Source of the DNA: an uncultured Granulosicoccaceae bacterium
Lineage (GTDB): Bacteria; Pseudomonadota; Gammaproteobacteria; Granulosicoccales; Granulosicoccaceae
DNA length: 64,000 bases
NCBI GenBank assembly: GCA_937920585.1
Contig: CAKZSB010000265.1
Coordinates: 1 to 64,000, forward strand
Reading direction: 5' to 3'
The notes below the pieces were generated by a model that saw only the letters and a list, made by a program, of their open reading frames with translations, made no database searches and was not told where the DNA came from. The position numbers and the translations under genes were made by a program. Positions 14,681 through 64,000 of the stretch are shown one piece after another. The first letter of the stretch is position 1, and the number at the start of each line of letters is the position of its first letter.

Positions 14681-15709
<1,029 letters not shown>

Positions 15710-15933
15710 GCGGTTTTTGAAGCCGCTGGCAGCGACAAACATGTAAGTGCGCCGCCTATTTGCTCGGCGCCTGAAACAGTAGCCGAATCGGGACACAGGC
15801 GGAAAAAAAAACCCGGCGAAATTCCTCAGTTGAGCTAAACCTATACAGATTATCTGCAGTTCCGGCCAGGGTTATCCTTGTCATTCAAGTGTCTGCAGCA
15901 CCAATTTCTAGGTTCAACTGGGTTGTGGGGTCA

Positions 15934-17022
15934 ATGAAACACGCCAATTTTCTCTGCCTGACATTAACCGCATGCGCCGTTGCTGTTGGCGGGTGTGCCC
16001 GTGGTGTTGTCGATGTACCTCCACCCACGGGTGTGGTTGCGCACGACAATACAGCGGGGCCGAGGGCGCCGTCTGCGTTGACAGTCGTGAGAACCCTGGA
16101 TGCTGTGACCATAGCCGGGTCAGTGGCCACAGAGCAGGAAAAACTTGCCTACACAGACCGTGCAGCCGAGTTGTTCGGAGGCGCGATCAATGCCGATGGT
16201 CTGGTAGTGGACGAACAGACGCGGCCCAGCCACTGGGTTGATCAGGCTTTGGGTGTGATGCAGAACATGGCCATCCTGAGTGAGTTTTCGATGGTGATCG
16301 ATGACGATGATCTCACCCTGACAGCCACTGCCGGTAGCCAGGAGGAAGCCGATGGTTACCTGCGCGATGCGGACTCGATCATGGCGGGCAAACTGGCAGT
16401 GCGAAGCGATATCGACATTCGAACGGCCGATCAAGCGCTGGCTTCCAATCTAGAAGCGTCTCGCGATGCTGACATCAAGCCAGCCGTTATGGAATTCCAG
16501 GCTGCGTCTAAATCGGTTGTCGACGCCAGGCTGCTCGATTCCGGTACGCCCGGTTTCGATGAAGTCCCGCTGGCGAGCTTTGAGCAGGACAACATAAACG
16601 ACAGCTTGCAAGTGATCAGCCGTGAGGAGATAGCCGCTCCAGAACTGGAAGAGCCGGCCTTCGGTGCCGCGATGGCTGCTGCCGACTCCGCCGCGACGAA
16701 AATGCCTGTGCCGGGTTTGAATGGCTACTTAAAGAATGTTCGATTTTACGGTGGCAGTGACAAGCTCACCCAGCGCGCCAGGGTGTCTCTCGACACATTG
16801 GCTGAAGCGCTGCAGGAGCGGCCGGGCACCCGTTTGGCGATCATGTCCTACACCAGTAATGCCGGCAAGCCGTGGGAACTGAAAGACAAGGCCAGAATGC
16901 GGGCCAAATCAGTGGTGACTTATCTTGCGCGCAAGGGTATCGAACTGGATCGTCTGCAGGGTTATGCTTTGGGCCATGTAAATGGATCTGGCGATCAAAT
17001 CGTGATTCAGGAAATACAATAA
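15934..17022 (+). CDS. OmpA-family C-terminal domain lipoprotein with BON-like repeats
   Basis: The product, about 362 residues, starts with a lipoprotein signal whose lipobox is VGGC, so it is probably anchored by lipid in the outer membrane. Residues roughly 40-180 look like two BON-type repeats (LDAVTIAGSVATEQEKLAY and a following copy). A linker leads to an OmpA-like peptidoglycan-binding domain of about 100 residues (LTQRARVSLDTLAEAL ... KARMRAKSVVTYLARKGI). This combination suggests a link between outer membrane and cell wall. The frame is open 15 codons farther upstream, but the Met at 15934 gives the signal peptide. The next gene begins 24 bases later. Confidence 0.8.
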   Translation: MKHANFLCLTLTACAVAVGGCARGVVDVPPPTGVVAHDNTAGPRAPSALTVVRTLDAVTIAGSVATEQEKLAYTDRAAELFGGAINADGLVVDEQTRPSHWVDQALGVMQNMAILSEFSMVIDDDDLTLTATAGSQEEADGYLRDADSIMAGKLAVRSDIDIRTADQALASNLEASRDADIKPAVMEFQAASKSVVDARLLDSGTPGFDEVPLASFEQDNINDSLQVISREEIAAPELEEPAFGAAMAAADSAATKMPVPGLNGYLKNVRFYGGSDKLTQRARVSLDTLAEALQERPGTRLAIMSYTSNAGKPWELKDKARMRAKSVVTYLARKGIELDRLQGYALGHVNGSGDQIVIQEIQ

Positions 17023-17045: not shown

Positions 17046-17489
17046 TTGAAACGACCGTTGTGGTCGCTGCTGCGCGATTGGCAATTTAACCTGGCTTTAT
17101 GTGCTGGCCCGCTTGTGTGGGCCGTACTTGCCTTTGTAATCGATCACGGCGATGGCCCGGCAGCTAGCTGGCCAGCGCCGTTGCTGTTGTTTCAGGTGGT
17201 CTTGCTCTATCCGGTGCTTGAGGAGTTCGCTTTTCGCGGCACGGTGCAAAGTTTTTTGTTGAATTACTCTGCCGGGGCTGCCAACCGCTTCGGGATAACA
17301 ATAGCCAATGTCGTCACCAGTGTGCTTTTCGCGGCGGCGCATTTGCTCTACCAACCCGCACTGTGGGCCCTGGCCACTTTCTTTCCATCACTGATTTTCG
17401 GCTATTTTCGAGAGCGTTATGATCAGGTGCTGCCTGGTCTTTTACTGCACAGCTGGTACAACCTTGGCTTTTTATTCTTTGTGATGTAA
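17046..17489 (+). CDS. CPBP-family glutamic intramembrane protease, MrtJ-like
   Basis: This is a small membrane protein of about 147 residues with four or five helices and the CPBP/ABI protease motifs: YPVLEEFAFRGTVQ (glutamate pair and arginine), LFAAAHLLYQPALWAL (histidine) and LLHSWYNLG (last helix). The short size and the stretch LATFFPSLIFGYFRERY resemble MrtJ, the protease proposed from family models to process JDVT-CTERM sorting signals; that assignment is from memory of the family. The start is uncertain: the frame has no ATG near the membrane segment, and TTG at 17046 is the best fit. No JDVT-CTERM substrate is visible in the window. Confidence 0.75.
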   Translation: MKRPLWSLLRDWQFNLALCAGPLVWAVLAFVIDHGDGPAASWPAPLLLFQVVLLYPVLEEFAFRGTVQSFLLNYSAGAANRFGITIANVVTSVLFAAAHLLYQPALWALATFFPSLIFGYFRERYDQVLPGLLLHSWYNLGFLFFVM

Positions 17490-17505: not shown

Positions 17506-18420
<915 letters not shown>

Positions 18421-60904: not shown

Positions 60905-63900
60905 ATGAGACTATTGTATTCAGTACTTGTGTGTCTGTTGCTTGTGGGATGTAATAGTGGATCACGAAACAGCAATGCGCCGGTAACCGGAACCGCCTTC
61001 GCGCCAATACCGGTCGAGGCACGTCGTATAGCGATAGTCCATTCCGCCACCAGTGCGGCAAGGTTCTACGACGAATTCATCTTCAATCAAACCTTTGCCG
61101 CGATGCAGCAACTGGCGCGGCAAGCGGGTCTGCCCTACGATCTTTTGAGTGAGTCGGACCTGACCGACGCGAGCAGACTTGCCAGCTACGATGCGATTGT
61201 CCTGCCTAACGTCAGCAACGCGCCGGCGTCAATCCGTGATTCGATGATCGCAGCGCTGGTCAGTGCGCAGCAAGCAGGCACCGGAATTATCTCCTCTGGA
61301 GATTTGCTGGCTGTTGATGAGCAAGGCCAGTCTTTTGATGACTGGGATACAGCGGCACGTCAGCTTTTAGGATTGGCGCCTTCCTCATATATTGAGGGTG
61401 AGGCGACGGTCGTGAGCATCAGCAACGCCGATCACCCCGTCACCAGTGGTTACGCCGTCAATGAACAAATTGCGGACTACGCGCGCGCCTGGTATGCAGA
61501 CTACCAGCCCGTTGACGGGACAATCCCTGTTGTACTGGCAACTGCAACGAGCGATGGTCAGTCATACAATGCCGTAGTGGCAACGAATAACACGGGCCGT
61601 GCCGTCCACTTTGCCAATGAAGAATTGCTTGGCGACAATCTCCTGTGGCCGGCACTGCAGTGGGTTGTGTACGGAGATAGAGCGCCGGTCGCGTTGCAGT
61701 TGTCACGTTCCGACAGTATCGCACTAGCGCGAAACGATATGGATCAAACCATGTACCCGGCCTTGCTGGATACCACTCACGTACCACTGCTGGACATACT
61801 GCGAGACTGGAAGCGTGATTTCAATTTCACGGGATCGCACTATATTGACATCGGCAATGATCCTGCCAACGGTTTGTATACCGACTGGAGTGTCTCCGCG
61901 CCATTGATGCAGCAGTACATTGATCTGGGTATAGAGATCGGAACACACTCCTGGACGCACCCGTATTTTACTGCGCAATTGACTGATACCCAGCTGGAAT
62001 TCGAATTCAATCAGGCGAAAAATGAAATAAGCACACAGTTGAATTATCCGGTTACCGGTGGCGCTATACCGGGAAATACCGAAAGCCTTCGCGTAGTCGA
62101 AAATCTCAATCAGTGGTTTGAATATTTCTCTGGAAAAGCCAATCCGTTCGGGCTAACCCAGCCCGCTGCAGTCGGCAAGCTAAGGCCGGACCACAACCTG
62201 ATCTATTTCAGTTTGAATACATCGCCAGACTTCACGCTTGCCGATTTCCTGAACTATCCACCGGATGTTGCCGAGCAGGTTTGGCGGGATGAGATCGATG
62301 CTATTTTGTCACCGCATGCGCGGCAACCGCTGATCCACTGGCTGTGGCACGACTACGCGCCTACAACGGAAATCGCCAATGGAACCTACACCCGTGAGAT
62401 GTTTGATAACACCGTCGCCTACATGCATCAGCGCGGTGCAGAATTCGCCACGCTCGACGACATGCAAAAACGAATTCGTAATTTTGCAACAGCTGAATTG
62501 ACAGTAGGCGCATCAGCAACCGTTGAGGCAAATATTGCAGGCACAGGCCTTGGCCAGTTCTCGTTGCAAATGGCGGACGGACATTCAATCAAAAATGTAG
62601 CGAACTGGTACGCCTACAGCGATGATAAAGTCTTTTTGCCCGAGAACGGCGGGCAATTCAGTATTGTCAGTGGCGCGAATCCCGATGCGGTTACACGCAT
62701 CAGCAGCCTGCCAATGCGTGCGAAATTACTTGGCCTGAACGGTGACGGGGCGACACTGACATTCGAATTCTCAGGTTCCGGGGAAGTCACCGTAACGCTC
62801 AACCCGCAGCTGGTTGGTAACTACGTCGTCAGTGGTGCCGATTCAATTATTGAAAATGAAGATACGCTGGTGCTCGCGTTCAACAATGAAGCAACCCACA
62901 GCGTTTCTATCGATTACAACACCGCGCCAAATGTCGAGCCGGTAGCGGTGAACCAGTCGGTCACAACCGGTGCCGGGCAGTCGATTGATATCACACTGGT
63001 AGCGACAGACGCTGATAATGAGTCACTTGAGTACAGTATCATCACGCAGCCGTCGAACGGGGTACTGAACGGTACTGCACCGAACGTGTTGTATACGCCA
63101 AATTCAGATTACACGGGTATGGATACGTTCAGCTTCGCTGCCAGTGATGGTGTCGCACAGAGTAATGTCGCCACGGTTGCTGTTGAAGTTACTGCCACAC
63201 CGATCCCGAACCTCCCTCCGGTGGCCAACAGTCTTGCTGTGCAAACACTTATCGATACCCCGGTTGAGTTGATGCTGGGGGGGAGTGACAATGAGGGGCG
63301 GTCGCTAAGCTATAACCTGCTAACGCCACCGGCCAATGGAACATTGAATGGTGTTGCTCCTGCGTTTGGCTATACTCCGGCGACCGGATACACCGGCGTC
63401 GATCAGTTTACGTTTTTGGTAAGTGATGGCACGAATGACAGCGAGCCTGCAACGGTTACGGTCAATGTTGTCGCGCAACTGCCACCAGTCAACGGTACGC
63501 GATCGAATCAGCTGGGCAATGACAGTGTCACTCTGGATGGTTCCCTGGCAGAGTGGAATGCAGTGACGTCCTTCGGTGTCGATGCCGATGATGCCAACAA
63601 CACCAATGATGCGATCGACTGGCAGGAAGCCTGGGTCGCCCATGACAACGACTATCTCTACATCGCCTATCAAACCTACGAGGCCACTAGTCTGACCTGG
63701 GGTCATGGTGTGTATCTGGATACAGACACCAGCAGCTTAACCGGGTTTCGTGGATTTGGTTCCGAACTGTCGATCGGTGCCGACTTTCTGCTCGAGGGAC
63801 AATCGCTCTTCAGGTACGGGCCGGACGCTGATGGCACAAGTTGGAGCTGGGAGTTCGTGGCGTCGGTGGATGCGGGCAACTCAGGCAATACAAGCGAGTT

Positions 63901-64000
63901 CGCCATTGCACTGGCAGACCTTGGGGATCCCGTCAATCTCAGGCTGGTGTTGCGTGGCAATAGTGCAGCAACCGGTGGCAGCACGCTCGATAACTTCCCC
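60905..64000 (+). CDS. Large surface lipoprotein with deacetylase-like and Ig-like domains (3' end outside window)
   Basis: The frame runs from the ATG at 60905 without a stop to the window edge, 1032 codons. A lipoprotein signal ends at Cys16 (LLLVGC). Residues about 25-260 look Rossmann- or amidotransferase-like (YDAIVLPNVSNAP). Residues about 275-500 resemble a polysaccharide deacetylase, with D315, D319 and the zinc pair H348/H352 in EIGTHSWTHPYF. Two cadherin/tandem-95-like repeats (about 675-766 and 768-858) each contain YTP-type strands and DTFSF- or DQFTF-like ends. Residues 860 onward resemble a CBM9-type sugar-binding domain (TLDGSLAEW, DNDYLYIAYQTY). An outer-membrane enzyme acting on polysaccharide is likely; the C-terminus is unseen. 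Confidence 0.85.
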   Translation, partial: MRLLYSVLVCLLLVGCNSGSRNSNAPVTGTAFAPIPVEARRIAIVHSATSAARFYDEFIFNQTFAAMQQLARQAGLPYDLLSESDLTDASRLASYDAIVLPNVSNAPASIRDSMIAALVSAQQAGTGIISSGDLLAVDEQGQSFDDWDTAARQLLGLAPSSYIEGEATVVSISNADHPVTSGYAVNEQIADYARAWYADYQPVDGTIPVVLATATSDGQSYNAVVATNNTGRAVHFANEELLGDNLLWPALQWVVYGDRAPVALQLSRSDSIALARNDMDQTMYPALLDTTHVPLLDILRDWKRDFNFTGSHYIDIGNDPANGLYTDWSVSAPLMQQYIDLGIEIGTHSWTHPYFTAQLTDTQLEFEFNQAKNEISTQLNYPVTGGAIPGNTESLRVVENLNQWFEYFSGKANPFGLTQPAAVGKLRPDHNLIYFSLNTSPDFTLADFLNYPPDVAEQVWRDEIDAILSPHARQPLIHWLWHDYAPTTEIANGTYTREMFDNTVAYMHQRGAEFATLDDMQKRIRNFATAELTVGASATVEANIAGTGLGQFSLQMADGHSIKNVANWYAYSDDKVFLPENGGQFSIVSGANPDAVTRISSLPMRAKLLGLNGDGATLTFEFSGSGEVTVTLNPQLVGNYVVSGADSIIENEDTLVLAFNNEATHSVSIDYNTAPNVEPVAVNQSVTTGAGQSIDITLVATDADNESLEYSIITQPSNGVLNGTAPNVLYTPNSDYTGMDTFSFAASDGVAQSNVATVAVEVTATPIPNLPPVANSLAVQTLIDTPVELMLGGSDNEGRSLSYNLLTPPANGTLNGVAPAFGYTPATGYTGVDQFTFLVSDGTNDSEPATVTVNVVAQLPPVNGTRSNQLGNDSVTLDGSLAEWNAVTSFGVDADDANNTNDAIDWQEAWVAHDNDYLYIAYQTYEATSLTWGHGVYLDTDTSSLTGFRGFGSELSIGADFLLEGQSLFRYGPDADGTSWSWEFVASVDAGNSGNTSEFAIALADLGDPVNLRLVLRGNSAATGGSTLDNFP

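Follow-up and report, generated by a model that had tools for sequence, protein, structure and literature searches.

The DNA analyzed here, a window of 64,000 nucleotides from contig CAKZSB010000265.1 of an uncultured Granulosicoccaceae bacterium, encodes a small protease (positions 17046–17489, forward strand) that, judged by its sequence, is a true member of MrtJ, the protease family that sorts JDVT-CTERM proteins, with cleavage as its predicted activity. It is probable that MrtJ sorts several unlinked JDVT-CTERM clients and that the OmpA-domain protein encoded by the neighboring gene is the envelope partner of a client class with a TGLxG stretch in its tail. The evidence suggests that mrtJ, the OmpA gene, and large surface proteins encoded elsewhere constitute one surface-display module. 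There is direct support for the gene, its family, the conserved active-site residues, the tails of the clients, and the co-occurrence of protease and tails.

Identity of the protease

The mrtJ gene encodes a CPBP glutamic intramembrane protease of 147 amino acids. Its start is uncertain; the frame opens with a TTG, separated by 23 bases from the stop of the upstream OmpA gene (17022), and neither an ATG nor a clear ribosome-binding site is visible. Among 11 NCBIfam families, the product matches best the MrtJ model NF033192 (99.6 bits, cut-off 75; 100.6 bits in a search of the whole genome), and only a single copy was found in the source genome by profile search. The 10 other families listed, including the runner-up Mrt_core (64.2 bits, cut-off 100), each remain under their own cut-off, and the general Rce1-like family is the only Pfam family above its cut-off (59.6 bits). 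The original prediction, which had noted the resemblance of a small CPBP protease to MrtJ, was borne out, including both motifs quoted in its favor, and the better match to another CPBP subfamily that would have spoken against it did not occur.

The residues of the CPBP signature (EExxxR, His, and HxxxN; here E59, E60, R64, H99, H135, and N139) are invariant in all 45 aligned MrtJs. They are located in the catalytic motif EEFAFR (17220–17237), at H99 (17340–17342), and in the catalytic motif HSWYN (17448–17462), all on the forward strand; the catalytic role of EEFAFR-type motifs in CPBP proteases is that described in PMC11980579. The AlphaFold2 model of MrtJ (mean pLDDT 93.9) aligns in VIA-align with SpdC (6u0o_A; Z 12.2, rmsd 3.2, 137 aligned) and Rce1 (4cad_C; Z 8.8, rmsd 3.5, 135 aligned), well above a third row at Z 5.0, with Z values of this size alone not being decisive for a helical protein. 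Foldseek returned no row with E < 0.001 for the same model, and its top row was again SpdC (probability 0.97).

JDVT-CTERM clients in the source genome

That no JDVT-type tail is visible in the window had been noted before and agrees with a six-frame search, whose best row (E 0.086) is not a C-terminus. At the right edge of the window, a long surface protein with Ig/cadherin-like repeats (60905–64000, forward strand), considered in the original prediction as a possible bearer of a sorting tail, is encoded in a frame that is still open at the end of the contig (base 64603), and no other contig of the genome shares its last 155 bases. In the entire genome, a draft of 5.34 Mb in 489 contigs that is 91.6% complete, three JDVT-CTERM tails exceed the cut-off of 27 (45.8, 38.0, and 27.3 bits), all of them on contigs other than that of mrtJ. 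This is the genome-wide search that the original prediction had called for, and the complete lack of such C-termini that would have counted against it was not observed.

The best of these tails (45.8 bits) belongs to a 665-aa frame on contig C284, which has a subtilase domain and ends in GGGCTLSVGKQPFDPLLPLLAGLALLGVIRHKHCAKSAG. The client on C158 is a giant of at least 2280 aa, whose N-terminus is lost at the contig end; it is rich in TSP3-like repeats, as recognized by eye, and ends in GGGCTLVKGAGFDPLLPLLLLLALVYSFGAGRCRYAVNPR. The client on C390 (546 aa) has a TSP3_bac domain (Pfam) and a tail with a cysteine; two weaker rows of the genome, on C149 and C114, are without a cysteine. The C158 giant scores 312 bits (50% over 332 aa) against the giant of a JDVT–OmpA–mrtJ triad from another family and 318 bits against that of Candidatus Thiodiazotropha, which is complete with 2028 aa; the C158 tail has a TGLxG stretch ahead of the cysteine, as in the giants of the triads. 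The 1.5 kb downstream of its gene contain no OmpA gene. The type II secretin GspD is encoded in the genome (589 bits, cut-off 351). In this genome, MrtJ thus probably serves several unlinked clients, namely the subtilase and two proteins with TSP3 repeats, one of which is the giant; a barrel partner or a fourth client may be missed, the genome being a draft.

Co-occurrence of MrtJ and JDVT-CTERM

The 57 relatives compared comprise 36 genomes of the family Granulosicoccaceae (that of the window included) and 21 genomes of other families. MrtJ is above the cut-off in 35 of the 36 family genomes vs. 3 of the 21 others, and JDVT-CTERM is above its cut-off in 33 of the 57; each genome of the family has between 1 and 14 JDVT-CTERM matches with E ≤ 0.1. 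Among 370 genomes evenly drawn from the class, 48 have both, 10 only MrtJ, 3 only JDVT-CTERM, and 309 neither (Fisher p 1.6e-46), with absences of JDVT-CTERM being soft, as at most 20 candidates per genome were scored. Two of the three genomes with only JDVT-CTERM possess a relative of MrtJ below the cut-off. The N-terminal domain of the giant client was rejected as a marker of the system: it is present in 20 of the 57 relatives, yet nine g4 proteins of ~1550 aa and one protein of G016 have it without a JDVT tail.

Genes resembling mrtJ also adjoin JDVT-like tails at nine loci (L328, L349, L350, L362, L363, L365, L371, L374, and L382) from a Bathymodiolus symbiont, groups of Campylobacterota, Nitrospira, and Magnetococcales, mostly outside the beta- and gammaproteobacteria that are named in PMC11980579.

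The OmpA-domain gene upstream of mrtJ

The gene upstream of mrtJ (15934–17022, forward strand; ATG at 15934, longest frame from a GTG at 15889) encodes an OmpA-domain lipoprotein that is likely a partner of JDVT surface proteins. Its lipobox cysteine (AVGGC; 15994–15996) is invariant in eight aligned lipoproteins of the genera g1 and g4. It is followed by a BON-like N-terminal domain (16060–16449; residues about 41–170 of the model, mostly with pLDDT 76–89), which in the model resembles that of OmpATb (Foldseek: 2l26, Rv0899, E 3.4e-8; 2kgs, OmpATb N-domain, E 1.2e-5), and by an OmpA-like domain (16732–17019; PF00691, 34.1 bits, cut-off 27.2). The original prediction was borne out in its pairing of the protease gene with that of a BON/OmpA lipoprotein. 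In OmpA domains, the Asp of the HTD motif binds peptidoglycan. This Asp is absent from all eight aligned g1 and g4 lipoproteins, whereas it is invariant in 16 barrel partners, which renders peptidoglycan binding by the lipoprotein of the window doubtful. The lipoprotein has only the OmpA domain in common with the barrel partners (107 aa, 32%, 44 bits) and does not match the partner that consists of a barrel alone.

At 27 of the 36 loci of the family, the gene immediately upstream of mrtJ, on the same strand, encodes an OmpA domain, whereas the other nine loci (in eight genomes) lack such a gene; none of the 36 has a JDVT tail next to mrtJ. Among 56 mrtJ loci outside the family (e.g., L319, L320, L387, and L351 of UBA5122), the order JDVT–OmpA–mrtJ occurs at 8, a JDVT gene without an OmpA gene at 13, and neither at 33; at the remaining two, OmpA and mrtJ genes are present and the contig ends just upstream. 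Conservation of the pair in relatives, which had been proposed as a check, is thus evident within the family and, as part of the triad, also beyond it. Because the OmpA gene is lacking at 9 of 36 family loci and at 46 of the 56 others, the partner is not required by every MrtJ. Nevertheless, all 10 OmpA matches outside the family lie on the strand of mrtJ and within 1 kb upstream of it, a slot that accounts for 56 of 1408 strand-kb. Barrel-OmpA-type proteins are, by their sequence matches, greatly expanded in the genomes of the family (f1), with 8–34 matches per genome at E 1e-10, compared with a range of 0–23 for the 21 relatives from other families. Despite these many genes, chance adjacency to mrtJ would still be rare, and the OmpA gene beside mrtJ is no random neighbor. 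The tree of MrtJ (145 columns) is poorly resolved, with triad rows in at least two places, and does not support a single origin of the triad.

The partner is usually an outer-membrane barrel with an OmpA domain and is a lipoprotein in the genus of the window and one other. Four triad partners that were scanned combine an OMP_b-brl barrel with an OmpA domain, and a custom barrel profile detected the barrel in all eight triad partners. The middle gene of Candidatus Thiodiazotropha encodes a barrel alone (187 aa; L325), 48–50% identical to the barrels of two triads, which indicates that the barrel can stand without an OmpA domain. Among the 27 partners of the family, 18 have the barrel, and 9 (that of the window and eight of genus g4) do not; the lipobox cysteine is present in all eight of the latter that could be aligned (L086 was left out because it is truncated by a contig end).

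Tail types and fusions of adhesin and partner

Linkage to the partner is reflected in the tails of the clients. Among 100 distinct JDVT tails, which were taken from selected loci (those of the best hits and of the triads, plus another 40 regions; one duplicate removed) and are not a random sample, 31 are tied to an OmpA domain, either in the same frame (11) or in a gene within 2.5 kb downstream (20). The TGL-type pattern is found in 29 of these 31 tails vs. 27 of the 69 unlinked tails (Fisher p 1.7e-7). The invariance of the cysteine in the tail profile is partly due to selection, because the profile was built from 24 hits at the analyzed loci. In genomes without an OmpA gene at mrtJ (G009, G011, and G013), a JDVT–OmpA pair is present elsewhere, which indicates that the partner gene goes with the client in some genomes and with the protease in others; in the source genome, it stayed with the protease.

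At least 11 stop-free frames in ten genomes fuse the two parts in the order adhesin, JDVT tag, basic cluster, second signal-like segment, barrel, and OmpA domain. By eye, the second segment ends in a lipobox in four of the 11 (L038, L305, L064, and L271) and in an A-x-A-like site in the other seven; in UBA5122, the fused frame ends just ahead of that of mrtJ. The placement of a signal peptide immediately after the tag would be understandable if cleavage is supposed to separate the two halves.

Matching frame lengths point to additional cases, among them G028 C94 (7519 aa) and G002 C70 (12049 aa), where JDVT and barrel-OmpA rows share a single open frame; these two are possibly giant fused adhesins.

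Alternative interpretations

Assignment of the protease to another CPBP subfamily (prenyl-protein or bacteriocin-type), with an accidental link to JDVT-CTERM, would be in line with the general Rce1-like match in Pfam and the fact that CPBP proteins are common, but it is highly improbable: the product exceeds the equivalog cut-off of NF033192, MrtJ and JDVT tails co-occur tightly, and although 12 of 14 control genomes match the MrtJ model, every one of them does so below the cut-off. That MrtJ and its clients are real and only the OmpA lipoprotein is a bystander, with both genes simply kept in a conserved hemB locus, is a more serious objection. The mrtJ loci of the family are situated in a conserved aroE–hemB area, with HemB near mrtJ in 30 of the 35 loci searched and also in the window, where mrtJ lies between hemB (14699–15709, forward strand; Pfam ALAD, 468.7 bits) and the convergent hemF (coproporphyrinogen oxidase; 17506–18417, reverse strand; Pfam Coprogen_oxidas, 440.2 bits). 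The nine family loci without an OmpA gene and the different N-terminal domain and altered OmpA motif of the lipoprotein point in the same direction. We nevertheless regard a mere bystander as unlikely, since OmpA genes precede mrtJ also in other families, eight times with a JDVT gene in front, since partner genes trail JDVT genes also away from mrtJ (eight loci, seven of them in the family), and since at least 11 frames fuse tag and partner, one of them directly preceding mrtJ in UBA5122.

Slightly less remote, albeit still rather unlikely, is a lipoprotein that took the place of the barrel partner without its job and that, for instance, acts as a chaperone in the periplasm or senses the state of the envelope instead of providing an anchor. 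The lack of a barrel at the nine g1 and g4 loci that have the gene, the loss of the usual Asp in all eight aligned lipoproteins, and the best match to the barrel partner in the source genome (E 3.1e-52, vs. values of about 1e-98 or lower for every one of the 35 relatives within the family) are compatible with such a change of function. However, both the OmpA-like domain and the slot directly upstream of mrtJ were retained, and the four fused partners with an internal lipobox indicate that a lipid anchor on the partner would be nothing unusual in this system. Gene linkage and fusions favor a role of the OmpA-domain neighbor as partner of the clients.

Comparison with known systems and proposed mechanism

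MrtJ is described in PMC11980579 beside a single JDVT-CTERM gene, as a two-gene system. The same protease and tail families (NF033192 and NF033191) are encountered here, both above their curated cut-offs, but the genes of the several clients are located away from mrtJ, which is instead accompanied by a gene with an OmpA domain; the arrangement of mrtJ adjoining one JDVT gene was not encountered at the 36 family loci. Another parallel may exist in Myxococcus, where TraA and TraB share an operon and identical mutant phenotypes, TraB is thought to fix or present TraA at the outer membrane (PMC3325183), and the myxosortase MrtX has been shown to cleave the MYXO-CTERM of TraA (PMC11980579). Both systems have a C-terminal tag with a cysteine, a partner gene with an OmpA domain, and a CPBP protease for the tag (PMC3325183, PMC11980579), whereas tag, adhesin, and protease subfamily differ; two barrel partners reach 72.3 and 73.0 bits with the TraB model NF033763, below its cut-off of 700, and the model is not among the NCBIfam matches listed for the lipoprotein of the window. 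MXAN_5598 of Myxococcus is likewise a single protein in which an internal sorting tag separates the adhesin from the barrel-OmpA part (PMC11980579), but the tag is MYXO-CTERM, whereas the JDVT fusions comprise at least 11 genes and have a second signal-like segment or lipobox after the tag. PdsO of the proteobacterial dedicated sortase system is also an OmpA-like protein tied to a sorting enzyme; the lipoprotein of the window scores 31.3 bits with its model (TIGR03789), under the cut-off of 152.2. The sorting enzyme of the PdsO system is of a different class from MrtJ.

We read the module as resembling myxobacterial TraA/TraB plus myxosortase, i.e., as an already described enzyme family in an arrangement that has three parts, several clients, and, in some cases, fusions. 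If the processing steps (cleavage, lipidation, and docking) follow those of MrtX and MYXO-CTERM, the clients would be exported by Sec and held in the inner membrane by the helix of the tail and its basic cluster. Some enzyme would lipidate the cysteine of the tail, MrtJ would cut behind the lipidated residue, and type II secretion would bring the client to the surface, where the adhesin, once processed, would be retained at or docked to the outer membrane by the OmpA-domain partner, in analogy to the presumed role of TraB for TraA. In the genus of the window, the barrel is gone, and its place would be taken by a lipid anchor.

A further-reaching interpretation, to which we lean somewhat less than we doubt it, regards JDVT sorting in Gammaproteobacteria as a TraAB-type display machine of three parts (adhesin, outer-membrane partner, and MrtJ), in which the tag of a fused form would be an internal cutting site, so that cuts there and by signal peptidase I or II would release from one polyprotein, in a 1:1 ratio, an adhesin anchored by lipid and the outer-membrane anchor that belongs to it, and in which the lineage of the window would have swapped the barrel anchor for a lipoprotein. 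In PMC11980579, MrtJ is known as half of a cassette of two genes. A third gene that recurs, the use of MrtJ for several dispersed clients in one family, and naturally occurring polyproteins would reveal the purpose of the JDVT tag, namely to provide adhesins of the surface with a partner that anchors them at the outer membrane, as in the kin recognition by TraA/TraB. With the fusions, cleavage can be tested directly, since adhesin and barrel would stay tethered to each other in an uncut product, and the lipid-transfer step of the pathway could be sought in the same lineages.

Other sorting-like tails in the source genome

The source genome also encodes a rhombosortase (G000 C111:2229-2681, L103; 153.5 bits, cut-off 84) and has four GlyGly-CTERM rows above the cut-off (L107–L110), which indicates a second C-terminal sorting system beside MrtJ. 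JDVT-like tails without a cysteine are present at C339:770-832 (L107; VTGVRGGGSLDLALLLL) and C114:8193-8282 (L005, L014; GGGSVATGRDPFLPLLLL), and clients may have moved between MrtJ and rhombosortase. A 73-aa frame at C149:7502-7723 (L013) combines a signal-like start with a sorting-like tail without a cysteine and is located ~0.5 kb from a rhomboid-like row (C149:8209-8646).
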